From the IMG/VR virus record IMGVR_UViG_3300044516_001715, positions 1-52,534 of that record: DNA of 52,534 bases; one strand, 5' to 3'. This stretch comes from a virus. The notes under the pieces are model-generated. The model searched no databases. It was not told the origin of the DNA and was given only the letters and a program-made list of their open reading frames with translations. Shown in pieces: positions 16,001 to 32,899 of the stretch. Made by a program: the position numbers and the translations under genes. Numbering within the stretch: position 1 is the first letter of the stretch; each line of letters begins with the position of its first letter.

Positions 16001-19000
16001 GCATCAAAATAACCATAGTTTGAAGCCGCCCATAAACATCTTACTGAACCGTTGTACATTGCTTTATTATCAACCAAATCCGTTGTTGTTGTGGGATTAC
16101 TTGTCTGATTTGTTACTAATTCATAATTCGTTTGATTCATATTAGCGCCAAAAGATGGTAGAATATAATACTCTGTACCGAACTCCACTTCATCAGTAGC
16201 CGGTACACAAAGATTTATAGTACTATACGCATCCACCAAAGTATTTGGTAGAAGTGCTGACCAAGTACTTACATTTACATCTTTGTTGTTTTGTTCCGCA
16301 GAAAATTCTGAATTGGGAAATTGATATAATCTTAGCCCGTCAGATACGGCCGATTGTATTTCTGAGTTGGTATAACTTTTGAACAAATCTCTACCGTTAT
16401 AAAAAAAAGCAAAATCGTTCATAACCTTCGGGTAAAAACCTGTCTGTATCTCCAAAATATTCTGATTTTGTTTTTCCAAACTTATTTCGTACTTTCTCGG
16501 ATTTGTTATTGGAAATTGAAACTCATACGTTGTAGTTTTGGAACTAAAGGTTGGGTCAAAATTTCCTAAATAATCAAAATTGTTCCATATACCGTCTAAA
16601 ATATCCTTGTTTGTTTCTACATATGTTTTATATCTGTACCATATTGACCCCATCTTCAATATCCAAGCATATGGTACTTTATGAATGGCTCCGAATTTAT
16701 TGAAACATGATGCCATATAATCCAACTCGTTATTTATTCCTAAGCTTTTATATCTCTCTCTAAGACTTATGAGAGGTAAAGAATTTATGAATAAGTAAGC
16801 GGCTTGTATGTAAGGGTTCCTACTTTTATTTTTTTCTAATCTTACACCATTTTGTATTGCGTTGATAAAAAAAGGTGTATTCAATATTGATGTGGTCTGT
16901 ACTTTACCCAAATACTTACTTGTTGGTGTCTGAACAAACCCTTCAGTTGGAATCATCCGAGAAGTGTTATTTATACTACCATCAAAGAACAAATTCATCG
17001 TTTGAGTACTGACATTAGGTTGTGTTGATAAACTTTCACTTATTATGCTCGGGGTTGGTGTTGTTCTGTATCCAAAATTTGTGACGGGTCTTTTGTTTAT
17101 GTAGTCATACAAATCTGTAAAATTAGAAATCATATTCCTGTCGGCAAATACCGTTATTACATTTTTGGTATCAAAAACATTATTCAGTGTTGCAGTAGCA
17201 CTTTGGGACATGTTAGTCTGAACCCATCCACTTGATGTAAATGGGTAGGTATCAATAATTTTGAATTCATTACTGGCATTTTTAGTCAAATCTACCAATG
17301 GTTTCAAATCTGCACTTTGTTGTGGGTCCAGTCCCAACTCTGTGGTTTTCAAAATTGAAAATGGATTGTCAGTCAGTTCTTTAAGATAGGATGTAACAAA
17401 AAATCCACGTTCATAATTATAGTAAGACGGACCCGTTCCATTATTTGAAATTTGTTTAAGAAAAGTGGGGTAGTTTTGAGAATTCAAATTTGTGTTTTTT
17501 AATTTGAATGTTATACCAGGATTATTTACTCCAAGACTTTCTATGATGTTGTTAGTTTCTACACTTGTATTCAACGTAATGAAGGGTGAGACTTGGTTGG
17601 GTAAAGCCCTACTGAAATTAGAATAATTTGCTGTGACATATTCTCTTTCCCATATTTCGTAAAAATATCTTACCTCTTGCTTATTTGAATAAATAACATT
17701 CGAAGTTGGGTACTCTATGGCATTTATTTGTATTGCAAATGTTGTAAGTTGACTTTCAATCGGAGTTTGGGTGGAGGGAATATTATCTTTCATTATCAAA
17801 CCCTTTATGTATTCTTCAACGAATTCAACTTCAGGCCATTTTGAAAAATCTGACGCCTGAGTAATTTTGACAACCGATGGTGCACCCAAATATTGTAGTT
17901 GAAATCTTCCCTTTTTATCGTCGGGACTTTCAACAAAAAATTGTGGCCATGGATAAACAGGTGTTTGTCCATTCACTATTCCTTGGTTCGCACCAGCCGC
18001 TTGTGAAGTAATTTGAACAACAGTTTGTGCTTCTGTGTTTTTTGCTGATGAACCATTTTTTTGAATTGCTAACGCTCTCACAGGGTCGTACTTCACACTC
18101 CAAGCCTTTGTGTGACAATCATCCAGAAGCCTTATAAAACCCTCCGTGTTTGCCATTATAACTGCGCACATATTTCTCACTGTAGGGTTAAATCCGATTC
18201 CTGTTGATTTGTCCTGAATCAGTAATTTTAATTCTTCAGTTATAGCGGTTTCGTAGGCTTTGAGTTTTTTTAGAGCATCTTCTTCTATTTGATTTACTGT
18301 TTGGGTGAATCCATTCTGTTGGTCAAAATTGAAAAATACAGGGTCGCTTTGTACTGTGGTGCCATTTATAACGGTACCCTTTTTTGCCAATAGAATGTCC
18401 AAATTATTTTGGGTTGTTGTTTTTTGAACGTCATTAGCACTTATGACATTGAAAAAAGACGCCGCTGTCGCATCTTTATTTATTTGACTTATATCAATTG
18501 TTATTTGTATTTGATTTGGGGTAAGTTTGTCTAATTTTATATTTTCATTGCTATCCTCGCCTAATGTTGGATTTTTTTTCAATTCACTCAAACTCCTATC
18601 AAAAATTGTATTTAAATTTTTTATTGCTGCTGTTTGTGAAACTAAATTTGTTTGAAGTTCCTTTTTGAAAAAATAAACTCTATTGTTGTTATTGAGAATG
18701 ATGGCTCTTGGGTCCAAATTAGTTAGAAACCATGAAGTATTCTGTGGGCCAATTAAACTTTCTACAAAAGCTTTCAAGGTCTTCAAATAGTTTCTTATAT
18801 TAGTCAATGGTTCTACATTCACTAAGGGGTAAGAATTTACAACATTTTTTTCAAACATTTCAAGTTTGTTCATCAATTGTAATAAAGTTAACTCAGGAAA
18901 ATCTTGAGGAATTAAACCTTTGCTTTTGTATTCACTATAAACTTCAACAACCTTCTCATACCCCCTCTCAGTTACAAATTCTGCATAAACTGTATTTTCA

Positions 19001-19881
19001 GCACGAGTTGCTGTAGTAGTTCCACCCTGTTGGGCTGAGGATGAATTCTGTAAACTTTGATTATTTGTTGCGGGATTAGCCACAACAGGTTCCAAACTTG
19101 TTGCGAATCTTTTATTATACATGTGAGGGGTTGCCAAAAGATGTGATATTAAAATTTCATTTAATATATTAAACTTGAACCCCTTGAATTCTAAAGTGAT
19201 TGAATAATTACCTGTTGAAGTATTGAACCTTGCGTCAAACTTTTCCAAGTATAGTTGGTATTTTATTGCCTGTCCGTAATACCCTTTTAGCGTCAAATAA
19301 AATTGAGGATAAGGTAAAGTAAAAAAAGCGGCATACGGGGAGTTATCTCCAAGTTGGAATAAAGCCCTTCCTTGAACATCTTCCAATTGCATTGAAACTG
19401 ATGGAATAAAACTTGTTCCAAGTTTACAGATAATAGAGGTGATACCCAATAAACCGTTGTCAGTAACATTTTGTTGGTCCAAAACAGTATCAACAAAGTA
19501 TGCTTTATTACCACGTGTGACGGTTTTCTCCAATTTGGCATTAGTAAATTGACCACTCAAAGCATCTTTACCTGTCAATTCATCATAGTAACCTGTACCT
19601 AAGTAATTATTTTTGGTTGGTTTTAGAAAATTTATTCTAGCAATAGTCATACTAGTGTTTACGTTTTCATTTGGTTGTATACCTAAAGCAAGTTTTGTTC
19701 TTGGTAATATTTGGGCCTCCAAATTAGCATACATCACCAAATTTTCGTGGTCTACAATTCTTTCACTTATTCTACCCGTACTATCAATAGTCTTATTTGG
19801 GTCAATTAAAATGATATTATCATAATCGAATTCAGGTAAAATATGACCACTTAAATCTCCTTGTATATTACTACCTGCCAT
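13087..19881 (-). CDS. Giant baseplate hub/tail protein with C-terminal IPT/TIG domain
   Basis: This 2264-aa protein is among the largest here. About residues 180-250 contain LTLKGYYGQAIKYQLYLEKF and TGNYSITLEFKGFKF, a beta-rich segment. About residues 1850-1900 contain NLRHVPMFNGPYLITDVSHT with TPGDFTTNFTGVR, the pattern seen near the end of hub proteins such as T4 gp27 and gpD-type tail proteins. The last 90 residues (FSPLTGTTGTVISLSGTNLE) form a typical IPT/TIG immunoglobulin-like domain. Long Asn/Gln/Thr-rich spacers link these parts. The gene overlaps the LysM protein stop by 11 bases. A hub with several fused modules is the best reading; the exact T4 counterpart is uncertain. Confidence 0.72.
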   Translation of the reverse strand: MAGSNIQGDLSGHILPEFDYDNIILIDPNKTIDSTGRISERIVDHENLVMYANLEAQILPRTKLALGIQPNENVNTSMTIARINFLKPTKNNYLGTGYYDELTGKDALSGQFTNAKLEKTVTRGNKAYFVDTVLDQQNVTDNGLLGITSIICKLGTSFIPSVSMQLEDVQGRALFQLGDNSPYAAFFTLPYPQFYLTLKGYYGQAIKYQLYLEKFDARFNTSTGNYSITLEFKGFKFNILNEILISHLLATPHMYNKRFATSLEPVVANPATNNQSLQNSSSAQQGGTTTATRAENTVYAEFVTERGYEKVVEVYSEYKSKGLIPQDFPELTLLQLMNKLEMFEKNVVNSYPLVNVEPLTNIRNYLKTLKAFVESLIGPQNTSWFLTNLDPRAIILNNNNRVYFFKKELQTNLVSQTAAIKNLNTIFDRSLSELKKNPTLGEDSNENIKLDKLTPNQIQITIDISQINKDATAASFFNVISANDVQKTTTQNNLDILLAKKGTVINGTTVQSDPVFFNFDQQNGFTQTVNQIEEDALKKLKAYETAITEELKLLIQDKSTGIGFNPTVRNMCAVIMANTEGFIRLLDDCHTKAWSVKYDPVRALAIQKNGSSAKNTEAQTVVQITSQAAGANQGIVNGQTPVYPWPQFFVESPDDKKGRFQLQYLGAPSVVKITQASDFSKWPEVEFVEEYIKGLIMKDNIPSTQTPIESQLTTFAIQINAIEYPTSNVIYSNKQEVRYFYEIWEREYVTANYSNFSRALPNQVSPFITLNTSVETNNIIESLGVNNPGITFKLKNTNLNSQNYPTFLKQISNNGTGPSYYNYERGFFVTSYLKELTDNPFSILKTTELGLDPQQSADLKPLVDLTKNASNEFKIIDTYPFTSSGWVQTNMSQSATATLNNVFDTKNVITVFADRNMISNFTDLYDYINKRPVTNFGYRTTPTPSIISESLSTQPNVSTQTMNLFFDGSINNTSRMIPTEGFVQTPTSKYLGKVQTTSILNTPFFINAIQNGVRLEKNKSRNPYIQAAYLFINSLPLISLRERYKSLGINNELDYMASCFNKFGAIHKVPYAWILKMGSIWYRYKTYVETNKDILDGIWNNFDYLGNFDPTFSSKTTTYEFQFPITNPRKYEISLEKQNQNILEIQTGFYPKVMNDFAFFYNGRDLFKSYTNSEIQSAVSDGLRLYQFPNSEFSAEQNNKDVNVSTWSALLPNTLVDAYSTINLCVPATDEVEFGTEYYILPSFGANMNQTNYELVTNQTSNPTTTTDLVDNKAMYNGSVRCLWAASNYGYFDANQVIKPNTDSYMNLIYSDGSTIVPFQLLSSNAYTTMEEIFGVFDKRALDLMEKEFLNYCAPITNVKYAPARSEINKSAVQIDGISRNFQAFMREAMKLTPTLATNTKDLFKEAITNQFNNFSSQIKSIMEYDVIIRNGNPSKFNRKTWESYVSIGLQTPTVVEPITFQPYVTNTLPSAGGGISLQQSKNLNGPAWKSLLTEVGFSSIPDLTYTDNGSYITDFFINNNIEFSSRNVGLLAPIIKMYATQRLNNPNLLVTNFRDNLTAYLNNNETFQGDLLNQVIISTQAKLPDVQEPQEQTIQSGLSGLQGKVEIYNVFKSLNDKWVAGYDYSQRTLFEDFLFLDRASRNIGETVVLDIFSVKNLINKNALNEGMSVYTLLSSMLMQNNFVVMPLPAYCNFYNVQEVNGIQSPNTESTLDFADNMWGTFTNVDYRKSGPKIVCFYVGKPSDQLGVSVKLTGIGDDGFDLRNPTGNPVIENQQGKTDWGLSNKVVGFNVDIGIRNQNVFQTFSVSQDNGKATSESIAAILMMADQTNTKNVGTQNASLYNFYKRRSYQCEVSAMGNALIQPTMYFNLRHVPMFNGPYLITDVSHTITPGDFTTNFTGVRQGIYDYPVEDNYLQKINQNLLTQLENLVIQKTDQNTTITTTNQGKETNLIQNSNNLSVDAQNACRANLSPQFDRLESTTGQLTKLTATDFSDSLKTYTGTAPNAELQTIVYVLSYMRTFSIAGDPKGEFVAYDFNFSNITLDKSIAASLTQDFVPNVYSCIKTKTISGEKSLPAAKFNDVNTYLKFMTGLITPRISQITGGVFKDKIIEYYCTAFPSAQVTLEYYESNIDRFLGIYGNIVDQAIASAGRVGLRTDIGTSFNQGGGGQQTTIPACPPTVLSAFSPLTGTTGTVISLSGTNLEYIRTITVGTTQVDFRTVQFISTNKIKFSIPQIVSTPPQQLQISVTTTGNLIPVVAPGIFTFI

Positions 19882-20194
19882 AATAATAAAAATATTGTTC
19901 TACAGCTGTTTTATAATCTTGGAGGGACGGTATCAGAGGGAACGGTATCACCAAGATAGCACCATCATAGATGTAATTTTCTAGTCCCCCGAAAATTGGA
20001 TTAGCCTGTAGAATCAACCATCCAAATACAGGGGAACTATAATATTGTTGTGAAATTCTATCTAATCTACTTTGACCTACTTTGTAAATGTATGTTTGGT
20101 CTGTAGTTTTTGCGGGAATAGTCACATATGGAACTATAGTTTGTTCTCCGTTGAATGTAAATTCATTATATCTGTTGTAATAAGGGTATGACAT
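19871..20194 (-). CDS. LysM-domain baseplate protein, T4 gp53-like
   Basis: The ATG at 20194 gives 107 aa. It overlaps the preceding stop by one base (TGATG); an in-frame TTG one codon earlier is unlikely. The core YKVGQSRLDRISQQYYSSP, then GWLILQANPI and a final YDGAILVIPFP, is a LysM fold as found in T4 gp53 and other small baseplate proteins. LysM in such proteins is usually structural rather than enzymatic. It sits between two giant tail genes and overlaps both, so its amount is probably set by coupling. Confidence 0.8.
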   Translation of the reverse strand: MSYPYYNRYNEFTFNGEQTIVPYVTIPAKTTDQTYIYKVGQSRLDRISQQYYSSPVFGWLILQANPIFGGLENYIYDGAILVIPFPLIPSLQDYKTAVEQYFYYYGR

Positions 20195-23100
20195 CAATTC
20201 AATTTAACTTTGGATATAAGAACGTCTCCACCAGGTGTTGTTGGCGTGTTCCATTTATTATCTGTATTTTGGTTTGTTTTTGCCCCCAAAGATTTTATTA
20301 AAATTTCTTGATTTGGGTCAGGAGCGCTGGATTTTGAATAGTCAAACTCCCTCGGTTTACCTAATGGGAATGGTGTAAAATTCAGAAAGTTTTTCATTTG
20401 ATTTGTTTCCATTTCGTTCAAAAAGGTCTGTGTTAGAGAATCTTCTTCATCAAATGCGGGTTTTACAATTCCTGTCCAATATGCATCAAATTCTTCAGAA
20501 TACCTCATAGAAGCGCCCCTTGGGGCTAAAGATTGATTTTCAATCAAATTTCCTATCATCGCATTCTTAAAAGTTTGATAAGCATCTCCTTTCAAATCAT
20601 TTGATAAAACCATGTATTGTCTCCTGAACGGGTTTCCACTGAACAGAGGGTTTTTACTAAAAGGAAAAAATACATCATTTTTTATTGTACTTATTTCAGT
20701 GCTGTTTATTCTAACTAAAATACCGGTATAAGTGTCAGAACCCACAGTAAAATTTACATTACTTGTAATTTTTGTGTAGAAATCATTCAAACTTACTTTG
20801 ATTATATCTATATCTTGGTCAAGCTCTTCGTTAGTTTTTGTAGGAGGGTTAGGATTACCCGCATTCACAGGTCCAACTCCGGTCGTTCCCGTCACCCAAT
20901 AAATCACCACGTTTCCATTAGTCTCTTGGAACCCGTCGGTATTGTCCCAAGAGGTTCCTGAATACGGAACAATATTGGCACGACTTACGTATTGTAGATA
21001 TGCTTGTTGTGTGTTTACAACATCTTGGACTATAGTAGTTGCGGCATTTATGAAAGTACCTTGTTTGGCTCTAACCAAGTCCAAATAATTTCGTTTCATT
21101 TGGTCTTTAGCCGCTCTTGAAAAATCTTTATCTGTATTACTTATCCATTCAATCCAAGGGTCTTGACCGGCATTTATTTGAGCAATCATGTCAGTGAAAA
21201 CTTTGTTTACATTTTTTTGTAAATTGTCTGCCTTTCCATACAAATATGTAATAGTGTTAGGGTCTGTATAAAAAGTTCCCTCTTGGTATTTTCTCTCTAT
21301 ACTCCATTGTTGTAACATGGCATTGTTATATTGAGAAAAAATTGATTTACTTTGGTTGAATACAGAAGTGAAATAAGTTTGGGTTGTTGATACAAAAGTA
21401 TCCATAAAATTTTTATAACTTATTCTTCCTGTCTCATCCGTTGCGGTGATAACGTTTGTCTGTCTATCACCTATGGTAGTACTGTTACTTAGAGCAGCAA
21501 TATTTTGAACTTGATTGGTTGTTGGTGCGGTAGGTTGAGCAACTGATTGTAAAAATTCTTTATCAAGTACTTTATAAGAATCGTCGGTGGGGTCTGCCCT
21601 GTCATCCCACATCTCTGTATTTGCGTAATAATTGAATGTTAGTGCGTTTTGTAATTTATCAACAGCAGTTTTTAAACCTTGTCCCCCAACAAAATTAAAG
21701 TTCAGAGTTATATTTGCAATCATAGGTTGAATACCTATCCCTTCAGGATTTATATCCAGTCCCTCAAAAGCTAAACTCAAACTAGTCGGAATTATTTTTG
21801 TATTATAAAAATCCCCCACCCTTAGTATCAAAACAGGTGGTGTTCCAAATGCGGTGTTTACAGCATTGTTATATTCTAATTCATAGGTACCACCAGCAGT
21901 GGCTTTCACAGTAGGGATTGTATCACCTGGTCTCATACATTGTTGTAAGAATGTCAATCTAGAATTCAAGCCCTCTGGGGTTGTGGAGTGGAAAGAAGGT
22001 TGGAAAAACTTCAATTTGTCTTTCAAATTATCGTATAACATGGGAGAGTCTTGTTTGATGGTCTCAAAATAATCACATTCTGATATGAGAGCCCTTACAA
22101 TTCTTTTGGATATGTTATCCGTTGGTCTAAATTTAGGTTCAACTCTTGTAGGCGGAGATGGTGGAATTGAAGTGTTCGTTGGTTGAGTTGGCACTATGTT
22201 TGGCGGTTGTTGTGAAGGTTCGGGTGCACTTATTGTTATAGATTTTATTTTTACCCTTCTACATGCCATTGCTGTTGAATTTGTAATTGATTGACCGGCA
22301 AGACTATTATTGTTATCATCGTTGTCCGAACAACTTTGAAACTCTGTATTTGAAATAAACTGATTCGAACTAGCATCCCATTGGAAAACTTGAACTTTTT
22401 CCGCCCCTTCTCCGAGTGGGTTTTCAGTGAAAGTTATTCTTCCTGATTGTATATAAGAATTCAAAAGTTGGTCTGAAGCAAACAAATTCTTCACACTTTC
22501 AATTCTTCTTTTCGAAAGTTCCAAATTATAATCTTTAGTGTTAGCCGCAGAAGCACTACCTGTCAAATCAATAACAACTTTGGATAGAGGGTTATTCTTC
22601 ATTACCGTTCTAAGTTCATTGAATAAATTTACTTGAACGTGGTTGTAATTTTGAGTAACTACATTATTGATAAAAACTCCTTGTGATGCATAAGTTGTGG
22701 TACTTTGATTTATATAATCCGTATAATATTGTGAATAACTTCCAACTACCGGTGATACCGAAGGTGGTGCTGGTATATCGTTAGGGAAATAAAGTGCAAA
22801 GTTTTGGAATTGTTTAAGTGTATCTTGTGGTGTATTCTGTGATGGTTGTGTGATTGGTTGTGAACTATTTTGTGTGTCCCTCGCGCCTGTAGCCAAAGTG
22901 TTTTTAGCCACCTCCACCTGTTCTTTACTAAGATTTTTCGATGATATTGCCTGTTGTATATCTTGTAATTCATTCGGAGGTATTGTATAGTATCTTTTCG
23001 CTAATTCATACAAATCATATTTTTTACAACCCGCAAAGAAAGATTCCAAAATACCATCAATTCTTTCTTTATTACTTTCGTTATTTAAAACTTTATTTAC

Positions 23101-25203
23101 TATAACATTTAGAACCGAAGGATGGTCTACAACAATTTTCCATTGTAAACTACCACCCCTACTTGTGTTAGTATATGTGTAAATTGGTTCTGGTCTACCA
23201 AGGAAATCTTGTGTTTTCCAATTTGCTGTCACATTTTCATTGAATGTCAAACCATAAGGTGGGAACCACATTACTCTACCGCCATTAGGACCCCTTTCAC
23301 AAATAGGTAATTCATTCACATTTATACCTGGTGTGTTTGATGTTCTCCAAGCTAAATTTTCTAATGAAAACATATATTTCTTAGCAAAGGCTGAATTATT
23401 TGTTCCAATCAAATTTGATGAAGCTTGACCGCCCTCTTGTTTGTTAGGCACTATATTCAAGTTATAGGTTTTATCAAAAACTGAATATGAAAATCTTCTA
23501 CCTTCATTTACAACGCCATCTTGTTTTTGTAAATCATTATACTGAAGATATGGTATATCCTTGGCAAAAACTCTACAGTATTCTGTACCAACCTCGTTTC
23601 CTAAAGAACCAACATAACTTAGTACTCTCGAACCTTTAGTTAGTTCTTTATACCCATCATTGAAAACTTTACTGACTTGGTCCATAGCATTACCAACATG
23701 TTGCAGTCTCCTACCGCCCTGTGGTTGGCTATTTATAATTCTTTGAGTATCATCAAGTATTGACCCTTGTCTAAACTCTAAATTTACAGACTCAGTTGAA
23801 TTGTATGATGAAGGTTTGAAGTCTTGGTCTAACTGTGTTACTTCTCCTCCAATACCAACTTTTTTTCCCGCATTCCCCCTGTATTTTGGGGATACCCAAG
23901 TGAATCCACCTTCAATTCCACCGCCATTGATATAAGCAGGTCCATTAGCTCCAAGTTTAATCTCTCTATTCGGTCCTTCATATAGTTGTGCTAACTCTTG
24001 TGGACCATATACAGGGGCTTGAACCTCTTGTCCGAATTCGTTATTCGGTAAATCCCCTGTAGGTGAAAAAACTCTTGATGGTTCTGAGGTTGGTGAACCT
24101 ATGTAGTAATTTGAATTGTTTATTGTTGTACCAAATAAAGCCCCACCAACTCTATCAAAAATATTCCTATCATATCCTGGCTTATATTTGTTATAATTTA
24201 TACTGCCGAATAATCTTGACCTTTGTCCTCCTCCAGTATTGTCCAAAAATATTTGTGAACCTGTCTTCGGGGGTCCTAATAACTGTCCAAAAAAATTACC
24301 CACAGTTGTGTTGGACCTTTGAAATGCTAACTGAAGTTGTTGTATTGTGGTTGGAAACCCTGAATTTATCGATGGGTCGAAATAAGAACCAGGTATTGGC
24401 GATGTTGGTATTATACTACCAGCTAATCTGAGGGCGAAATCCGTTGCAGCTAAAATTGGTCCTGATGGTTGGGTAATTACCCAATTTGGTTCGATGAGAG
24501 GAACCCTTGTAGTCAAAAGATTGAATATATCTGTACCACTATCTATATTGAAAAGATTTATTCTTCCCAACGTTTGTTGCCTTATTTCTGTGGCAATTCT
24601 TTCTTCAAATGACCTTCTGAGTGTAGATGCGCCGAGTCTGGCAATGTATGAATCTTGTGTCAAAAGACCGTTACTTCCCTGAGGGTCTCTTGTAAGTAGA
24701 ATTTGTACAGGATTATATGAAGAGGGTACAAAAGTTGATGGGTATGGTTGATTATTATATATGTTTCTTGAACCGTTTCTAATCCAATCAGGTTCTGTAA
24801 TCATTTCACCACTATCAACCGTCCCGTTACCACCGGTACCATAAGCGTTTCTTGGTCTCCATTCCCTTGCAGCAATTGGTGCTTGGTCTATGATGTGAGC
24901 ATCTTGTTGTCCTGGTCCATACTCACCTTGGTTTGAACGTGTGTTATTCAATCCACCCACATCTCCAACAATTCTATACCCACCTTCAGCCCCAAACTGA
25001 TTCAGAGGATAAAGTCTGTTGGCTAAAATTGGCGAATCAATTAAAACATCAGGACTGTCAGTAACCGACAACTGTGATTGTTGATACTCATATGTTATCG
25101 GGGGGTCAGGACGATTTGGAGATTTCGGGTAAGGTGCCAAATTTCTCGTCATCAATCGTGACCTGAACCTTTCGGAACTACTATAATCTAATGGGCTAGG
25201 CAC
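20194..25203 (-). CDS. 1669-aa virion protein with internal OmpA-like domain
   Basis: The first codon is probably GTG at 25203 (MPSPLDYSSSERF); the next in-frame ATG is 17 codons later. The first half is Gly/Asn/Pro-rich and low in recognisable motifs. About residues 820-940 hold VVIDLTGSASAANTKDYNLE, then LSKRRIESVKNLF, an OmpA-C-like peptidoglycan-binding pattern with the conserved Asn and Arg. About residues 1100-1200 contain ILRVGDFYNTKIIPTSLSLA and further beta structure. The gene lies between the tape measure and LysM genes in the baseplate region. A role in holding or sensing the cell wall during infection is inferred from the OmpA-like domain. Confidence 0.75.
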   Translation of the reverse strand: MPSPLDYSSSERFRSRLMTRNLAPYPKSPNRPDPPITYEYQQSQLSVTDSPDVLIDSPILANRLYPLNQFGAEGGYRIVGDVGGLNNTRSNQGEYGPGQQDAHIIDQAPIAAREWRPRNAYGTGGNGTVDSGEMITEPDWIRNGSRNIYNNQPYPSTFVPSSYNPVQILLTRDPQGSNGLLTQDSYIARLGASTLRRSFEERIATEIRQQTLGRINLFNIDSGTDIFNLLTTRVPLIEPNWVITQPSGPILAATDFALRLAGSIIPTSPIPGSYFDPSINSGFPTTIQQLQLAFQRSNTTVGNFFGQLLGPPKTGSQIFLDNTGGGQRSRLFGSINYNKYKPGYDRNIFDRVGGALFGTTINNSNYYIGSPTSEPSRVFSPTGDLPNNEFGQEVQAPVYGPQELAQLYEGPNREIKLGANGPAYINGGGIEGGFTWVSPKYRGNAGKKVGIGGEVTQLDQDFKPSSYNSTESVNLEFRQGSILDDTQRIINSQPQGGRRLQHVGNAMDQVSKVFNDGYKELTKGSRVLSYVGSLGNEVGTEYCRVFAKDIPYLQYNDLQKQDGVVNEGRRFSYSVFDKTYNLNIVPNKQEGGQASSNLIGTNNSAFAKKYMFSLENLAWRTSNTPGINVNELPICERGPNGGRVMWFPPYGLTFNENVTANWKTQDFLGRPEPIYTYTNTSRGGSLQWKIVVDHPSVLNVIVNKVLNNESNKERIDGILESFFAGCKKYDLYELAKRYYTIPPNELQDIQQAISSKNLSKEQVEVAKNTLATGARDTQNSSQPITQPSQNTPQDTLKQFQNFALYFPNDIPAPPSVSPVVGSYSQYYTDYINQSTTTYASQGVFINNVVTQNYNHVQVNLFNELRTVMKNNPLSKVVIDLTGSASAANTKDYNLELSKRRIESVKNLFASDQLLNSYIQSGRITFTENPLGEGAEKVQVFQWDASSNQFISNTEFQSCSDNDDNNNSLAGQSITNSTAMACRRVKIKSITISAPEPSQQPPNIVPTQPTNTSIPPSPPTRVEPKFRPTDNISKRIVRALISECDYFETIKQDSPMLYDNLKDKLKFFQPSFHSTTPEGLNSRLTFLQQCMRPGDTIPTVKATAGGTYELEYNNAVNTAFGTPPVLILRVGDFYNTKIIPTSLSLAFEGLDINPEGIGIQPMIANITLNFNFVGGQGLKTAVDKLQNALTFNYYANTEMWDDRADPTDDSYKVLDKEFLQSVAQPTAPTTNQVQNIAALSNSTTIGDRQTNVITATDETGRISYKNFMDTFVSTTQTYFTSVFNQSKSIFSQYNNAMLQQWSIERKYQEGTFYTDPNTITYLYGKADNLQKNVNKVFTDMIAQINAGQDPWIEWISNTDKDFSRAAKDQMKRNYLDLVRAKQGTFINAATTIVQDVVNTQQAYLQYVSRANIVPYSGTSWDNTDGFQETNGNVVIYWVTGTTGVGPVNAGNPNPPTKTNEELDQDIDIIKVSLNDFYTKITSNVNFTVGSDTYTGILVRINSTEISTIKNDVFFPFSKNPLFSGNPFRRQYMVLSNDLKGDAYQTFKNAMIGNLIENQSLAPRGASMRYSEEFDAYWTGIVKPAFDEEDSLTQTFLNEMETNQMKNFLNFTPFPLGKPREFDYSKSSAPDPNQEILIKSLGAKTNQNTDNKWNTPTTPGGDVLISKVKLN

Positions 25204-25265: not shown

Positions 25266-27251
25266 TTATGTTGTTACCGAATATTGTCCTTTTTTAGCAA
25301 TCTTACCTGCTCTGAGTAAAGCACCCTCGGTTACCTCCAAAAGGGCTTGTTTCACAGTTTCGGGTGATTGTAAAATATATTCAGTGAAAGCAGGATAAGA
25401 TGGCATACTACTGAAATCTGGTGGAAGTTTTACTGTAAGTTCTGCCGGTATAGGTGTTTTATCATCAAACGATACTTTCATATTCATTCCTGTTGTAGCC
25501 GCCCTTAAACCAGATTCATTTATTGCATTCAATAGTGGTAAAAAGGCCTTTGTTGATGCCGCATTCACAACAAACTCACCATCTGATAATCTTGTTTCTA
25601 TAGAATCGCTTGTTGAAGTACCGGGTCCCCTTACTAAACCACCGGTGGCTCTACCTGGGGGTAATCTTCTTCCACCACCACCAAGTCCTATTTTTCCCAA
25701 GATTTCATTTAACATTTCGGTTGCTCCTCTTCCTCTATCCGCATAAACAGTTTGAATATCTTTTTTGAAAACATCGTAAATTGCTGGAGCTGAGGCTTTC
25801 ATATAATCTTTTAATTTTGCTATTTCGTTTTGTTGTTCTCTTTCCCTCTGTGCTTCTGAAATTTTAGCATCTTGTATATTTTGTAATCTAGTTTTGAACT
25901 CTTCCATTTTTTCAAAAAATCCAGATTTTTCGTAACTCTTTCTCAGTGAATCTGCAACATCCCTCGTTGCATCCAACGAATTATTCACATTTCTCAAAAC
26001 TCCTGGCATGTTAAAATATGTTTTAGATAATACCTCTCTTACCGCTTTGAATTCGGCTAATAATTTTTCACTTGTTGAAAGTTGAGCTTCTTGTATTTTT
26101 TCCAATGTTTTGGGTGCTTCCTCTTGTTGTTTAATCAATCTTTGGAAATCATCTTTATTTAAATTATACAATTTTTGTTGATATTCATTCCCTTTGTCAT
26201 CTTTGATTGATACCTCATATTCTCCTCCTTCTCCCATTCTGGCAACGTTTGCAATCATTTTTTTGTCCTCTTCCGAAACATCAAAGTTTAATCCTGTGGT
26301 ATTGATTTTTTTTAATTTATCATCCATTTCAGCCGCGGCGAGCGCTGTTCTTCTCATGTTTTCCGCACTGAGTCCTGTCTCGTCTTCCAAAGCTTTCATT
26401 GTGAGAATACCCTGAGGACTGACTCTGAAACTTTTAGTTTTTTCATCAAAATATGTGAAAGATTTCGCGACATTTATTATACTGTCTTGTAAACCTGATG
26501 GGTCGTTTATAGATTGATTCATCAATTGGAATGGGTCTGTGAGATTTCCCACTGAAACTCCTAATCTTTGAAATGCTGATGCCATCTTTACCGCATCCTC
26601 AGGATTTAATACTTTATCTGCAAAGGTAAAGGTTTCTTTCATATCAAACCTTAGTCTCGAAGCCTGTGCTGCCATTTTGGTCAATCCCATAACTCCTTCG
26701 TTGAAATTGTATCTCGAGAGTTGTTCAGTTTGTTTAACCACATCTGCCATTACAACTTTAGCATTCTGTCCAATCCTTTGAACATAAACTATGGAATCTT
26801 CTAAGTTATCTGCAATGTTTTGATATTGTATACCAACAGTCTCAAATTCTCCAACAATAGTTTGAACGTTTTGTCCTAAAAGTTTACCCACCGTGAATAA
26901 ATCCTCAACGTCTTTCACGGAAGCAACTACATTTCTTCTTGTACCTGAAGCAATATCATTTATCGTTTCTGCGGCATCAGTATAACTACCACCTAAGGAA
27001 ACTATAGTAGGAGCGGCTGATGAGATTGTTCTCATCATTTCCTGTAATCTTTGTCTTGTACCTGTAAATGCTTTGTTTAGGGCTTCTGCGGTAAGAGTTA
27101 TGTCCTCGAAAGGCTTCAAAGCCGCTATAAGTGGATTTTTTGCCTCCGCAAGCGCTTTGTTCATTTCTGCGAAAGCTTCGGTAAACCTTTTTATGTTTTC
27201 TATGTCATTCTTGGTTGGTGTACCGCCCGTTCCTGTTGTTTGAAAAAACAT
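25266..27251 (-). CDS. Tail tape-measure protein
   Basis: The 661-aa protein sets tail length. It is mostly helical (long runs such as TEAFAEMNKALAEAKNPLI). Near residues 540-590 it carries ATGGLVRGPGTSTSDSIETR and LSDGEFVVNAASTKAFLPLL, the glycine-rich SDSI/GEFVVNA motif found near the C-terminus of many tape-measure proteins. It directly follows the tube and tail-chaperone genes, the canonical order. Length is similar to T4 gp29 (590 aa), suggesting a tail of roughly T4 size. A TATTTAT motif lies 16 bases before the ATG. Confidence 0.9.
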   Translation of the reverse strand: MFFQTTGTGGTPTKNDIENIKRFTEAFAEMNKALAEAKNPLIAALKPFEDITLTAEALNKAFTGTRQRLQEMMRTISSAAPTIVSLGGSYTDAAETINDIASGTRRNVVASVKDVEDLFTVGKLLGQNVQTIVGEFETVGIQYQNIADNLEDSIVYVQRIGQNAKVVMADVVKQTEQLSRYNFNEGVMGLTKMAAQASRLRFDMKETFTFADKVLNPEDAVKMASAFQRLGVSVGNLTDPFQLMNQSINDPSGLQDSIINVAKSFTYFDEKTKSFRVSPQGILTMKALEDETGLSAENMRRTALAAAEMDDKLKKINTTGLNFDVSEEDKKMIANVARMGEGGEYEVSIKDDKGNEYQQKLYNLNKDDFQRLIKQQEEAPKTLEKIQEAQLSTSEKLLAEFKAVREVLSKTYFNMPGVLRNVNNSLDATRDVADSLRKSYEKSGFFEKMEEFKTRLQNIQDAKISEAQREREQQNEIAKLKDYMKASAPAIYDVFKKDIQTVYADRGRGATEMLNEILGKIGLGGGGRRLPPGRATGGLVRGPGTSTSDSIETRLSDGEFVVNAASTKAFLPLLNAINESGLRAATTGMNMKVSFDDKTPIPAELTVKLPPDFSSMPSYPAFTEYILQSPETVKQALLEVTEGALLRAGKIAKKGQYSVTT

Positions 27252-27288: not shown

Positions 27289-27441
27289 TTATTCTTTTTT
27301 GTGTTCCTCAACCCATTTATCCAATAGATATCTTCTGACAAATATGGGCATGTTCATAAAGTCATTATAACCAACATGAAAAAGGGTTGATAGATAATAA
27401 TACTCGTCTATTTGGTTCTTTCTATAATCAGAAGAAAGGGC
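27289..27441 (-). CDS. Probable +1 frameshift extension of the tail assembly chaperone
   Basis: A 50-codon frame ends with TAA at 27289-27291 and overlaps the end of the chaperone gene in the +1 frame. It has no ATG until FMNMPIF, 22 residues before its end. The frame opens only at 27474. It encodes a coherent peptide (ALSSDYRKNQIDEYYYLSTL, then NMPIFVRRYLLDKWVEE). This resembles short helical proteins with an MP-x3-R pattern that I recall from near tape-measure genes of other myophages. Lambda, P2 and Mu make their tail chaperones by frameshifting at this same map position. The junction GAA TTT TTT CGC C lets tRNA-Phe slip from TTT to TTC before a CGC codon, which should be rare in so AT-rich a genome. 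The fused product would be 294 aa. Frameshifting itself is inferred. Confidence 0.65.
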   Translation of the reverse strand, partial: ALSSDYRKNQIDEYYYLSTLFHVGYNDFMNMPIFVRRYLLDKWVEEHKKE

Positions 27442-28174
27442 GAAAAAATTCGACCCCAAAACTAACGTTGACAGTTAGTTTTTCTCCTGAAGGGGCAATT
27501 ACTTGTTTGGTTAAATCTAATCTTGGTTCGCTATCTTGCAAGAATTTTCTAATGTACTTGGAATCCGCTATGGGCATTTGTTCAATAAACTTAGCAATCT
27601 CCCCCTTATCAGAGTTACCATCAATCTCTACAATTTGAGATTGTAGAGTAAGAGTGACTCTCGGTGCAGGTCTGTTAGTCGGGTAACTTTCAAATGTTTT
27701 TTGTAGTTGGTTTTGTTCCCCAAAGGTTAGTAGTTTTAATTTTACAGATGCTCCCGAAACAGGTAGTTTTGTTGAAAATGTTCCGTCTTCGTTTGGCTCA
27801 TTTGAACTTTGTTTGATATCCAACTCTGCTAACGATATGTTTGCTTCAAAACTTTTTTTAGTTGATGGGTCTGTCACATTCATTGTAATGTAGGGTCCAA
27901 AAGATGTATTCCTTAAAAAAATGAGGATGGCTTCGATATCCCCTTCCAATAAGTCATCTATTTTAATATCAGGTTCATAAATTTTGTGTCTCAAAAGTGC
28001 GCCTGTCAAATCGTTTGTATTACCCAAAAGAATATTTTCATCCGATGCAGTAAGATATCCTACTTTTACTGATTTTTTTTTATTCTTATAAAATTTTCCC
28101 CCTGATGGAAATGTTACAACATCATGAGGAAGTGTGAAATTTTGTTGTCCGTATTCTCTACTTTGGTCCTGCAT
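27428..28174 (-). CDS. Tail assembly chaperone / T4 gp26-like baseplate family protein
   Basis: The 248-aa zero-frame product has an N-terminal pattern VVTFPSGGKFYKNKKKSVKV, then LTASDENILLGNTNDLTGAL, LLEGDIEAILIFLRNTSFG and YITMNVTDPSTKK. This matches my memory of the T4 gp26-type baseplate family (Pfam T4_baseplate). Its place between tube and tape-measure genes is that of tail assembly chaperones. It ends four codons after a slippery T6 run (27443-27448), beyond which a second frame continues (see the extension entry). A terminator-like hairpin ends directly before the ATG. Family membership is fairly likely; the chaperone role is inferred from position. Confidence 0.75.
   Translation of the reverse strand: MQDQSREYGQQNFTLPHDVVTFPSGGKFYKNKKKSVKVGYLTASDENILLGNTNDLTGALLRHKIYEPDIKIDDLLEGDIEAILIFLRNTSFGPYITMNVTDPSTKKSFEANISLAELDIKQSSNEPNEDGTFSTKLPVSGASVKLKLLTFGEQNQLQKTFESYPTNRPAPRVTLTLQSQIVEIDGNSDKGEIAKFIEQMPIADSKYIRKFLQDSEPRLDLTKQVIAPSGEKLTVNVSFGVEFFRPFF
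27440..27448 (-). other. Candidate +1 programmed frameshift site
   Basis: In the coding sense the zero frame reads TTT TTT CGC. After a one-base forward slip of tRNA-Phe the frame reads TTC GCC. The zero frame stops 12 bases later at TGA. The slip would keep good codon-anticodon pairing (TTT to TTC). A -2 slip on the same T-run would give the same frame. Confidence 0.55.
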
Positions 28175-28246: not shown

Positions 28247-28735
28247 TTAGTATACCAACACACAACGGTCAGGACGTAAACCACAAGTAATATCTGCCAA
28301 AGCGTCATTACTATAGGCCAGTGAACCGAAATTTGCACTTGTTAGGAAAGTTCCGTACAATATCCACTTCTCTACAACAACTCCTGTTGGGTCCAACATT
28401 TCAAGGTCCACATCTTTTTTGTAACCCGCAGCATAACCCATACGACCTGTCACTGATTCAGCATGTAAACGAACCCATTCCATCAGAGCCTGTGCCGCTG
28501 AAGGACCAATTGGGTCTCTGAATTTAACTTGTATTTCATCCCAATTGAATCTACCAGCAACAAATGTTGATGTATTCAAAAATTGAATTTCTGTAGAATT
28601 TATTTTGATAGATGGTCTTGAAGCAGATTCAACAAACCATTCGTTGATACCCATGCTTGAAGGAAACCTCAAAATAAATCGATTCTGCCGTTTCGGTTCG
28701 TAGGGTAAGGGCATCTTCATCAGTAAATCAGCCAT
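28247..28735 (-). CDS. Tail tube protein, T4 gp19-like
   Basis: The 162-aa product forms the inner tube through which DNA passes. It has the gp19 layout: RQNRFILRFPSSMGINEWFV, then SASRPSIKINSTEIQFLNTS, WDEIQVKFRDPIGPSAAQAL, LEMLDPTGVVVEKW and NFGSLAYSNDALADI. T4 gp19 is 163 aa. It follows the sheath gene with one HAD gene between, and ends at a strong hairpin. A TATTTAT motif lies 34 bases upstream of the ATG. Confidence 0.93.
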   Translation of the reverse strand: MADLLMKMPLPYEPKRQNRFILRFPSSMGINEWFVESASRPSIKINSTEIQFLNTSTFVAGRFNWDEIQVKFRDPIGPSAAQALMEWVRLHAESVTGRMGYAAGYKKDVDLEMLDPTGVVVEKWILYGTFLTSANFGSLAYSNDALADITCGLRPDRCVLVY

Positions 28736-28828: not shown

Positions 28829-29656
28829 TTATTTTACTTCTTTTTTGATTCCTCCAGCAGTAGAATAAGTCTTTACTAGTTCTGGTTCATCTTCAAAAGC
28901 TTTTTTCATCACTTCTATATTCTTTAAATCATCATCTGAAAATCCTATGGTAGGTATAGATGGAATGAATTTATTTCCTATATCCATTTTAAGATAACTC
29001 CTTTTGTTTAGCAAGGCCGCCATTCCTCTAATATAGTCTACAAATTCTTTCATCGCAATAACTTTACCGTGTTCGGGATTTGTGGCTCCAATATCGTCAC
29101 CAAAAGAAACAGGGTGGTATTTGTTTAGTTCTAAATAAGTTTTAATAAGTTCTTCGTTTGTCATTTCTTGTTCACCAGCGAAGGTTCTATATTTTTTTAA
29201 ATTTTTAATAACTTGATTTTTATCTATTCCTTTGAAATCTGAGACTATGTAATTGTAAACAGCTTGTTTGAGAGTTCTTGGATTGTGACCCCTAGCTGTA
29301 ATTATAGCAAAAATAGAACCATTATTCACAGCCTCTACAAAATCTTCCCACGCTGGACCAGGTTCCGCTTTCATAGCGTCAGTTAAAAATTGTTTGTCTC
29401 CGTCTACTCTGAAATCTCTGAAAGCGTTAGGAGCAAAATCAACAATTGTATTACCTCTATATTTGAAGGGTCCCTTACCGATTTTACTCCTATACTCTGC
29501 AAAATCCTCTGTACTCATACCTACCTCATCACCCTCCTCGTCCAAAAGAAAAATTTCAGTCGGCATATGTACAATGTTGTCATCCCAATCAAAAGCATAA
29601 TACTTTAAATCTGGTGTACCCTCTGGATTTATCCCCTCTCGTAATTTAGTTTTCAT
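28829..29656 (-). CDS. HAD-superfamily hydrolase-like protein
   Basis: The 275-aa product shows HAD motifs in order. Motif I is AFDWDDNIVHMPT (nucleophile and acid-base Asp, near residues 23-26). Motif II is IITARGHNP (near residue 117). A possible motif III lysine lies in NLKKYRTF. Motif IV is SFGDDIGATNPEHGK (near residues 185-199). All key acids are present, so a phosphatase or phosphotransferase activity is plausible. The gene sits between sheath and tube genes after a strong terminator, in a module otherwise devoted to virion structure. Its substrate is unknown; nucleotide, nucleic-acid end or protein phosphate are all possible. Confidence 0.8.
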   Translation of the reverse strand: MKTKLREGINPEGTPDLKYYAFDWDDNIVHMPTEIFLLDEEGDEVGMSTEDFAEYRSKIGKGPFKYRGNTIVDFAPNAFRDFRVDGDKQFLTDAMKAEPGPAWEDFVEAVNNGSIFAIITARGHNPRTLKQAVYNYIVSDFKGIDKNQVIKNLKKYRTFAGEQEMTNEELIKTYLELNKYHPVSFGDDIGATNPEHGKVIAMKEFVDYIRGMAALLNKRSYLKMDIGNKFIPSIPTIGFSDDDLKNIEVMKKAFEDEPELVKTYSTAGGIKKEVK

Positions 29657-29698: not shown

Positions 29699-32600
29699 TT
29701 AGATATTTTCAAACGAAGCACCTGTTGGTGTAATGAAGAATTCGATATCTATGAATTCTAATGCCTTCGTTGGTTTAAGATATATTTTACCTGTAAGTGT
29801 ATTTCTATCTAAATCTTCTGGTGATGATGAAACTGTTACACGGAAATCATACAAACCTCTATCCCTTCTGATTGAATCAAGAATCGGATTGACACTATCC
29901 AAGAACTGTTGTCTAACTATTTGGTCATTTTGTTCAAACAACAATCTAACCGCGACAGCTGAAATCAACTTACGAGCTTGCAACAACAATCTTCTAACAT
30001 TTAATCTGTTTAGTGCTGTATCTGCCACTTGAAGTGTTTTATTACCCCAAATTACTGTTCCTACATCAGCGAACGTAGCAATCGGGTTGATTCTTCCTTG
30101 GTATAGAGTGTCTCTATCTTGTTGTGTTAGTTTCACTCTCGCTTTGATTGAGTTCACTAAACCTCTCGTATAACCTGCCGATGCAAACCATGGGAAAGAA
30201 ATATTATCTGTTAAAGCTAAGTTTCTACAAACTTCGCCGGTTGGTGGAATGTAAATTTGTGTATTATTTACAGTATCCCTTACTAAAATCCACGGGTAAT
30301 AAGTTGCTGTGTAGTTAGAGTCAATGCCTGTATTATCAAGATTATCTACAGCTGATTGTGGGTAAATAACTTGATTTTGGTCAGTTGAATCTGGAAGTAA
30401 CATGTTGTAGTCAGGTGTTGTAACAATATAAATTGAGTCAGCTCTTTGGAATTGAATCATATCTATCGCAGCTTCTACGAGTGTCTGATTATAAACATAA
30501 TCGATACTTGCTGTTGCAAAAACATTTATATTCGTAGACTCAGGATTTTGAAAAGTTAAAATACCAAGTAGATAAGCGTAGTAGTCTGTGTTAGCAAAAC
30601 TCTGACTATCAGCATCTACAGTAATATTTTTGAAAGTACCAAAACCTGTAGCGGTTGGGTATCTTGCTGTAACACAAGCACCTGCCAAATATCCTGTACC
30701 ACCTAAAGCGAATCTATCTTCGTTAGTTCTCCTTTCTTCGTAAATGTCCCAACCATCAAATCCTCCAGCCATACACAAAGTGAATTTCCTTGCATAGATG
30801 AAATAATAAGGATTATCTGGATTTTGGGGGTTTGATGTAAAATCAGCAACACCACATTCAAAAGCGGTCTGACCACTTGTTGTGTATTCATTTCCAATAG
30901 TTACCACTGTAGCTCCTGAATCTAAATGGAAACCTTTTGTCAAACCATTCCAAGGAGCCGATTCAGTTGCAAAACAAAAATCAATTACAGGATTCTTCTG
31001 TCCGAGATATTGTAAGAAAGCGTCTTCTATAGAAAACAAATAAGAAGTAGACATACCTAAATATGTTCTACGAACTACATCCCCCGGAGAGGTTACGCTA
31101 TTAGCTCCTCCTGCTGCTGACCCAAATGGAGGGTCAAGAACAACTTCTTGAGGAAAATTGTATTTTGTCTTGTAAAAAATCATAGGTGCTTGAACACTTG
31201 TACTACCATAAATTCTCTGATTAAATCCGTTGAATCCACAAGGTATGGCGTCTATTGGTGCATTTTCCGCCATCTCAACCATTATGTATTTTGAAATTAG
31301 AGCATACTCTCCATCATAGGAACCAATTTTCTTAGCAATAAAATTATTACTAGCCGGGTCCAAAACACAATTCTGAAATTTTTCAATTACGATAGGATTT
31401 GAATCTGTATCAAAGAATTGTCTTACTAACACGTCAAAAGTCATATTATCAAACGAAAGATTCGCAATAGAAATCTTTACTTCTGTATTTGCCGCATCAC
31501 CATCTGAAATTGAGATGAATCTAAATAAGTTGTATACTTTATTACCTCTCAATTCGGAAACTAAGTAAGGAGATTTTGGTGATTGGTATCTTTGTAATTT
31601 CCATGCTATAGAATCCGAAGCTAGACTTCTTGCTGAATCGAGTGCAATCATATTACAATTCAATCCACGAATATAACTTTGGTTGTAAGCATATTCCAAC
31701 GAACCAGAATAAAGCTCCTCAACGAAAATTGGGGTTTCAAATCTTGGTTTATCAAAATTACCAATACCTAAAACTTTCGTAATAAATTGCGGTGAAGTTG
31801 CTAGTAATGAGTTTTCGAATGAAAAAGTATTCCCATCTCTTGTAACGCCACTAAGTAGGAAAGTTGCAAACGGGTCTTGAGTAACACCTGAGTATTGATT
31901 TGTGCAAATCATATCCAAATCTGTTGTACCTGTGACCTCATATATCGGGCCATGGTTAGGACTTGAATTACTATTTGTGTATAATGAAATACCTCTAGAC
32001 CTCAAAGTTGCTACAACCATGTTATTGAAATCGGGATAAGCAGTACCTGAAAAATTATAAACGTTACCTGACACTGAACCTGTGAAAGTACCAGAGCCAA
32101 TATCCTGTAAACTGTCAATATAAAAATCCCAAGAATAACCAGTATATGAATTATTCGCACCTGGTTCGAAAGTAGCATAAAACCACGTATCATTATCTGA
32201 GGAACTCAAATCGTTAAAAGCCAAATTTAAATTGTTTACTCCAAAAGCATTATTAGTAGTACTGTAGACTGATGTAATACTGTTATAATCCCCATCAGGA
32301 ACAGAACCATAAAAAAACGAAGAAGTAGCACTCAAAGAAGTATCCGCTAAAACTTGTTGTATGTAGTTATCCAAACTTTGTTGATAGGTAGAAGTACTTC
32401 CGTTGGACAAAATATATTGAGATGTAAAATCATTCGATACATCTGTAGGGAACGTATTACCCCAAACAGTTACACTAGCTGTAGTTGCGGTGAATGTATT
32501 TGTAAAAGATGTTGTACCTGTTGAATCAACGGTTGTTGGGTCAACGTTAGCAATAGTTGTAATGGACCAAGATGGGCCTGCATCATAACCTGACAAACCT

Positions 32601-32899
32601 AAAACTCTTGTGACAAATAATTGATTAGATTGTTGTAGGTATGATTTAGCTATATAAGCTGCTTCATATTTTGGAATTTGAGTATTTACAAATTTTACAG
32701 GTTCAGTACCCCCAAAATAAGCTTGAAACTCATCATAGTTTGTTATGAAGATAGGTTCAAAAGCCGGACCTTTAATTGTCTCTCCTACGAGACCTAATGT
32801 TGTTACCCCCACACTCTGTGCCACGAACGATAAGTCGGTTTCAGAAGTGTAGACACCAGGTGACACATATACTTTTTGATTTACTTGTGCTGTTGCCAT
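29699..32899 (-). CDS. Tail sheath protein, T4 gp18-like, enlarged
   Basis: The 1066-aa protein is the contractile sheath subunit. The N-terminus YVSPGVYTSETDLSFVAQSV with VGETIKGPAFEPIFITNYDE is characteristic. So is the C-terminal block RINPIATFADVGTVIWGNKT, then NVRRLLLQARKLISAVAVRL, and FIDIEFFITP at the end. T4 gp18 is 659 aa. The extra length lies mainly in a Thr/Ser/Asn-rich region from about residue 110 to 350, and probably forms additional surface domains. The gene ends at a strong terminator and has a TATTTAT motif 34 bases before the ATG. Confidence 0.95.
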   Translation of the reverse strand: MATAQVNQKVYVSPGVYTSETDLSFVAQSVGVTTLGLVGETIKGPAFEPIFITNYDEFQAYFGGTEPVKFVNTQIPKYEAAYIAKSYLQQSNQLFVTRVLGLSGYDAGPSWSITTIANVDPTTVDSTGTTSFTNTFTATTASVTVWGNTFPTDVSNDFTSQYILSNGSTSTYQQSLDNYIQQVLADTSLSATSSFFYGSVPDGDYNSITSVYSTTNNAFGVNNLNLAFNDLSSSDNDTWFYATFEPGANNSYTGYSWDFYIDSLQDIGSGTFTGSVSGNVYNFSGTAYPDFNNMVVATLRSRGISLYTNSNSSPNHGPIYEVTGTTDLDMICTNQYSGVTQDPFATFLLSGVTRDGNTFSFENSLLATSPQFITKVLGIGNFDKPRFETPIFVEELYSGSLEYAYNQSYIRGLNCNMIALDSARSLASDSIAWKLQRYQSPKSPYLVSELRGNKVYNLFRFISISDGDAANTEVKISIANLSFDNMTFDVLVRQFFDTDSNPIVIEKFQNCVLDPASNNFIAKKIGSYDGEYALISKYIMVEMAENAPIDAIPCGFNGFNQRIYGSTSVQAPMIFYKTKYNFPQEVVLDPPFGSAAGGANSVTSPGDVVRRTYLGMSTSYLFSIEDAFLQYLGQKNPVIDFCFATESAPWNGLTKGFHLDSGATVVTIGNEYTTSGQTAFECGVADFTSNPQNPDNPYYFIYARKFTLCMAGGFDGWDIYEERRTNEDRFALGGTGYLAGACVTARYPTATGFGTFKNITVDADSQSFANTDYYAYLLGILTFQNPESTNINVFATASIDYVYNQTLVEAAIDMIQFQRADSIYIVTTPDYNMLLPDSTDQNQVIYPQSAVDNLDNTGIDSNYTATYYPWILVRDTVNNTQIYIPPTGEVCRNLALTDNISFPWFASAGYTRGLVNSIKARVKLTQQDRDTLYQGRINPIATFADVGTVIWGNKTLQVADTALNRLNVRRLLLQARKLISAVAVRLLFEQNDQIVRQQFLDSVNPILDSIRRDRGLYDFRVTVSSSPEDLDRNTLTGKIYLKPTKALEFIDIEFFITPTGASFENI

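Follow-up and report, generated by a model that had tools for sequence, protein, structure and literature searches.

The window analyzed here is the whole 52,534-nucleotide stretch of the IMG/VR virus record IMGVR_UViG_3300044516_001715, and the locus under study lies on its minus strand between the tail tube and tape measure genes. Its features, in the direction of transcription, are listed below.

28247-28735, minus strand: tail tube gene (gp19-type), the upstream neighbor (phrog_4542 tail tube, E 1.5e-26).
27428-28174, minus strand: 0-frame ORF of 248 aa, the short tail assembly chaperone (TAC-N or lambda gpG analogue; T4 gp26-type, PF12322).
27455-27457, minus strand: GGG codon within an invariant GGGG run (GGG in 30 of 30 dereplicated sequences).
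27440-27448, minus strand: shift site TTT TTT CGC (TTT TTT CGY in 80 of 80 close relatives).
27445-27443 to 27444-27442, minus strand: candidate +1 step in which tRNA-Phe moves from UUU to UUC while CGC, a rare Arg codon, occupies the A site.
27428-27439, minus strand: 0-frame tail past the slip codon, CCT TTC TTC TGA (PFF, stop), which overlaps the +1 frame (direct reading).
27289-27441, minus strand: +1-frame extension of 50 codons, GCC...GAA, then TAA (putative TAC-C or lambda T analogue domain).
25266-27251, minus strand: tape measure gene, the downstream neighbor and presumed chaperone client (phrog_25241 tail length tape measure, E 4e-14).

The minus-strand 0 frame ends ...GGG GTC GAA TTT TTT CGC CCT TTC TTC TGA, with the TGA at 27430-27428. 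The +1 frame opens 47 nt upstream of the end of this TGA and closes at the TAA at 27291-27289, leaving a gap of 37 nt to the tape-measure ATG (27251). A fusion of the two frames is 294 aa long when one extra base is taken at CGCC. The initial annotation had described this overlap, with 50 codons past the slip, and the placement between the tube and tape-measure genes; direct reading bears out the former, and the coordinates of the two neighbors agree with the latter. Two of its details stand only in part. The stop said to follow four codons after TTT TTT CGC C is present, but counted from the second TTT it is the fifth codon. The +1 frame, said to have no ATG, indeed has no start near its beginning, but it is not wholly ATG-free.

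Several other minus-strand genes around this cluster are unusual. A 275-aa gene (28829-29656) has an odd location between sheath and tube and looks HAD-type hydrolase-like by eye (AFDWDDNIVHMP); it had no PHROG match. The tail sheath gene (29699-32899) encodes 1066 aa, about twice the usual length, and matches sheath families in its C-terminal part only. Two very long ORFs lie downstream of the tape measure, 20194-25203 (1669 aa) and 13087-19881 (2264 aa); the first has an OmpA-like stretch by eye and no PHROG match.

The 248-aa 0-frame protein matched PF12322 (T4_baseplate) at E 3e-11, scoring 43.7 bits against a curated cut-off of 24.5, and phrog_150 at E 4e-15. These matches, the position of the gene, and the homology to T4 gp26 and gp51 identify the protein as a tail assembly chaperone, as first proposed. 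It is the single PF12322 match in the 52.5-kb record, which may be a fragment. The short form and the extension were modeled apart with AlphaFold2, each as the plain window translation. The short form was predicted with a pLDDT of 87, and Foldseek matched its model to the SP-15 baseplate hub subunit (E 2e-16) and to gp26 of Aeromonas phage 25 (E 7e-6), which ties it to PF12322-type proteins in SP-15 and other phages. The extension, referred to as the T domain, was predicted as a three-helix unit with a pLDDT of 89. We did not detect a significant family for the T domain in Pfam or PHROGs, and a Foldseek search of BFVD with its model returned nothing below E 0.5; the weak matches include two annotated tail or tape-measure chaperones and a 59-aa PhiW-14 protein. 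Searches of the PDB by sequence and by fold gave no match. PF20546 (DUF6760) was considered as the T-domain family and rejected, with one member at E 0.07 and none matched in the window.

Close relatives of the locus comprise 80 IMG/VR loci at 61-100% identity; none were found in 84,980 species genomes. All 80 end TTT TTT CGY CCT TTC TTC TRA, and in all 80 (43 distinct gene/extension sets) the +1 frame is open for 136 nt beyond the stop. Judged across these relatives, this openness is far beyond chance, and conservation of the overlap, which had been suggested as a check, extends to every one of them. The -1 frame of the window group closes 17-47 nt past the stop, and the site is not of the -1 X XXY YYZ type. 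Selection was analyzed in 30 dereplicated sequences (<95% identity). Past the stop, the extension has a pN/pS of 0.21 in the +1 frame, and the upstream gene has 0.31. The +1 frame contains no stops beyond the 0-frame stop, compared to averages of 4.7 and 5.6 in the other two frames. The low pN/pS and this difference in stops point to purifying selection in the +1 frame only, and by these measures the extension is a conserved protein-coding stretch. The locus has the arrangement of a G/GT-type tail assembly chaperone locus: the gene sits between tail tube and tape measure, and the overlapping downstream frame is conserved as protein and has no start of its own.

The shift site itself is constrained. 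Both Phe codons are TTT in all 30 sequences, and eight other conserved Phe columns are TTT in 17-26 of the 30. The codon after TTT TTT is CGT or CGC in 30/30; elsewhere in these genes CGY accounts for 7 of 294 Arg codons (2%). The rarity of CGC expected in the initial annotation is confirmed, CGC being the rarest codon in the window's long ORFs (3 of 15,233 codons or 0.2 per 1000, the shift-site codon included). CGN makes up 13% of the Arg codons in the window, and TTT_CGN occurs in frame in just one other long ORF. The 0-frame codons past the slip are invariant in 30/30, apart from the TGA/TAA, because the +1 frame overlaps there. The overlap leaves unexplained both TTT codons, the use of CGY rather than AGA, and the upstream GGG. 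These are the elements of a UUU_CGN site: TTT CGC in the window and TTT CGY throughout the close relatives, a conserved overlapping +1 ORF, and CGN that is rare in the window.

Stimulatory elements were sought around the site. No RNA structure was convincing (RNAalifold consensus -5.5 kcal/mol, two pairs with compensatory changes), and with so weak a consensus a downstream pseudoknot or hairpin was rejected as the stimulator. No established +1 stimulator was found at the site, a suitably spaced Shine-Dalgarno run of the prfB type included, and the A-site codon is CGC with no stop codon there, unlike a prfB-type +1 site. A Shine-Dalgarno-like core precedes 2 of 29 window ORFs, a scarcity suggestive of a Bacteroidota host and one that leaves a Shine-Dalgarno stimulator like that of prfB unlikely; the host of the window group apparently does not rely on Shine-Dalgarno sequences. 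The GGGG run is invariant in L001-L080 and precedes the six T by 5 nt; GGG accounts for about 10% of the window's Gly codons, and the run is not conserved in the divergent immuto-like group. The run may be a signal or may pair with the downstream CCUU, and the pairs of such a possible hairpin around the slip site never vary.

Wider searches with the jumbo phage LR756508 protein gave 55 more loci, and searches with the Flavobacterium phage immuto protein gave at least 80. Among the matches listed, all distinct divergent ends (at least 98) have a +1 extension. Their sites, among the same matches, are mostly TTT TTT TGG, TTC TTT TGG, or TTT CTT TGG, with TTT CTA TGG (at least 3) and TTT CTT TAC (at least 1) being rarer, and each of these listed ends offers a P-site codon capable of +1 re-pairing (UUU_U, CUU_U, or UUU_C). 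The +1 extension is also present in isolated phages of Flavobacterium (immuto), Bacillus (SP-15), Listeria (LIS04), Microcystis (Mel-JY01), Rhodothermus (RM378), and Streptococcus (GXN1), and the GXN1 site is TTC TTT CGT C. In public records the extension appears as a small gene of its own at L088:4732-4869, L095:4408-4575, L091:4690-4869, L083:5740-5859, and L084:5746-5856, under the names 'baseplate hub assembly catalyst', 'putative baseplate hub catalyst', and hypothetical protein.

Three other explanations for the extension were weighed against a +1 slip. A -2 shift as in phage Mu would have tRNA-Phe on the second UUU move two bases backward inside the six-T run, and it predicts the junction ...VEFFFALSSDYR with an extra Phe (FFFALSS) in place of ...VEFFALSSDYR for the +1 step. 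The TTTTTT of the window group would let the tRNA re-pair perfectly at -2, and neither TTT codon varies, so this group alone is compatible with either direction; LIS04 (TTT TTT AGT), the sole poor fit to UUU-to-UUC slippage, would have to slip at the first UUU and fits a -2 shift better. The divergent sites are more discriminating: TTC TTT TGG, TTT CTT TGG, AAC TTT CTA, and AGC TTT CTT allow +1 but no good -2 re-pairing. Among the matches listed, the 30-nt ends of both groups include 78 distinct sequences, all 78 with a +1 candidate and 12 without a -2 candidate. A fixed rare CGY in the A site is also typical of +1 sites. The +1 direction given in the initial annotation is favored because TTC TTT TGG and TTT CTT TGG permit no good -2 re-pairing, and we regard a -2 shift as improbable.

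A separate small gene, with its own start or translated by coupling past the TGA, is how the extension is annotated in several relatives (SP15_046, immuto35A_232), and in some -1-class phages an ATG overlaps the stop codon. In the window group, however, conservation of the extension starts at the slip site, and the slip-site codons are themselves constrained. TTG 27459 had been named as a start that would undermine the frameshift, and it was rejected: in three relatives (L024, L038, and L074) the extension cannot begin there because a +1-frame TAG intervenes between the window's TTG position and the slip site. A later start was rejected too, since the first in-frame ATG, GTG, or TTG falls at codon 11 or beyond, usually at 17-31 of about 51, and its place is variable (39 distinct relatives). 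We consider a separate gene very unlikely. Transcriptional slippage on the T run, with a base gained or lost in some mRNAs, would draw on the six-T run of the window group, but RNA polymerase slippage usually takes a longer run than six T, and the +1 extension persists at homologous sites that lack one (TTT CTT TGG, AAC TTT CTA). This explanation is barely credible.

A related extension in the -1 frame of the same gene was found in cyanophage S-RIM8, Methylophilales phage Melnitz-1, Aeromonas phage ZPAH1, Vibrio KVP40-type phages, Delftia phage PhiW-14, and the Ackermannviridae. Most of these -1-class phages carry a T TTT TTC heptamer, and the S-RIM8 extension is annotated 'baseplate hub assembly catalyst', the name of gp51. 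The extension of the jumbo-phage PF12322 genes of XacN1 (L086) and LR756511 (L235) is also apparently -1. The full length of PF12322 is matched by T4 gp26 as well as by gp51, the latter being longer by about 48 residues. Profile comparisons of the T domain linked the window group to the immuto-like group (E 3e-7), the immuto-like group to the -1 class (E 9e-8), and the -1 class to the gp51 C terminus (E 5e-5), and each link beat 100 of 100 column shuffles. Compared directly, the window-group T domain and gp51 gave no significant match. By these profile links, homology between the gp51 C terminus and the T domain runs by way of intermediates. In a tree of the 0-frame protein, a strong branch separates the +1 from the -1 class, XacN1 excepted. 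XacN1 lies among the +1 class on a very long branch, which may reflect another change of direction or an artefact of the tree; no XacN1-like relatives were found in IMG/VR.

By every comparative test available, the programmed +1 frameshift site is real, and the reading first proposed for the locus is supported by conservation of the frame, constraint on the shift site, and the lack of a usable start. It is very probable that a single gene gives rise to two chaperone forms by a +1 slip in this T4-like contractile-tailed phage. We infer that the shift occurs, in a single +1 step and at low efficiency. The majority of ribosomes would stop at TGA 27430 and produce the 248-aa short form. A minority would slip one base forward with tRNA-Phe on the P-site UUU and the A site waiting on CGC; the tRNA would re-pair with UUC, a better match to its GAA anticodon. 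GCC would be read next, and 50 more codons would give the 294-aa form with its three-helix C-terminal domain. By analogy to lambda gpG and gpGT, coating of the tape measure protein may fall to the short form and recruitment of tube subunits to the extended form.

Earlier work has already reported what the gene does and that T4-like relatives use frameshifting (Vladimirov 2022, through citing papers). T4-like phages with short and long chaperone copies are attributed to Vladimirov, Gautam and Davidson 2022 as cited in PMC10885494, and poly-T -1 signals in T4-like phages to Vladimirov 2022 as cited in PMC12846349. The initial annotation knew of no frameshift in T4 itself; its two separate genes, 26 and 51, had already been proposed to take that place (Vladimirov et al. 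2022, as cited in PMC10885494). The +1 branch and a UUU_CGN site in a phage look new, neither being described in the literature searched. The gene is one where a frameshift is expected, but the +1 direction is unusual within the family and opposed to that of its more familiar T4-type relatives. On balance, we lean toward a broader reading in which a whole T4-like branch makes its long chaperone by +1 P-site slippage, mostly of tRNA-Phe, and the T4/cyanophage branch does so by -1 shifting or duplication; the window group and the Streptococcus phage would use UUU_CGY, the influenza PA-X motif. If true, it would provide the first conserved case of UUU_CGN frameshifting in a bacterial virus. The recoding mode of the chaperone (-1, +1, or duplication) would be mapped on the tree of one family, and the switch could be studied with homologous parts. 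The extension is currently listed as a separate hypothetical gene or missed in annotation.

The locus shares features with several known systems. Lambda gpG/gpGT likewise come from one gene between tube and tape measure, with a short and a frameshift-extended form, but lambda shifts -1 at a heptamer, whereas the proposed shift here is +1 in a PF12322 family gene. T4 gp26 and gp51 share PF12322, and the gp51 C terminus is tied to the T domain via intermediates; T4 has two genes and no frameshift, in contrast to one gene with an overlapping frame. The -1 PF12322 chaperones of cyanophages, KVP40-type phages, PhiW-14, and the Ackermannviridae have the same protein, shift position, and homologous T domain, but they mostly use T TTT TTC in the other phase, with a -1 extension, and occupy a separate tree branch. 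The HSTV-2 halovirus tail chaperone, probably a +1 case (review PMC5009743), is also a myovirus protein, although from an archaeal virus. The prfB (RF2) CUU_UGA and the Listeria phage PSA/A118/A500 CCC_UGA sites involve a +1 P-site slip at a slow A-site codon, as proposed here, and CUU_UGG of the immuto-like group resembles the former; those sites have a stop in the A site and lie in different genes, whereas the present one has a sense codon and no prfB-like Shine-Dalgarno sequence. For UUU_CGN, +1 shifting has been demonstrated in influenza A PA-X and proposed in plant amalgaviruses, and is explained by a tRNA-Phe slip from UUU to UUC (PMC5052127). The slip proposed here is the same, P-site UUU to UUC with a rare Arg codon of the CGN type next in line, but those are eukaryotic RNA viruses and this is a gene of a bacterial DNA virus. 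A +1 motif shared between them suggests an inherent slipperiness of UUU before a slow CGN codon, on bacterial and eukaryotic ribosomes alike.
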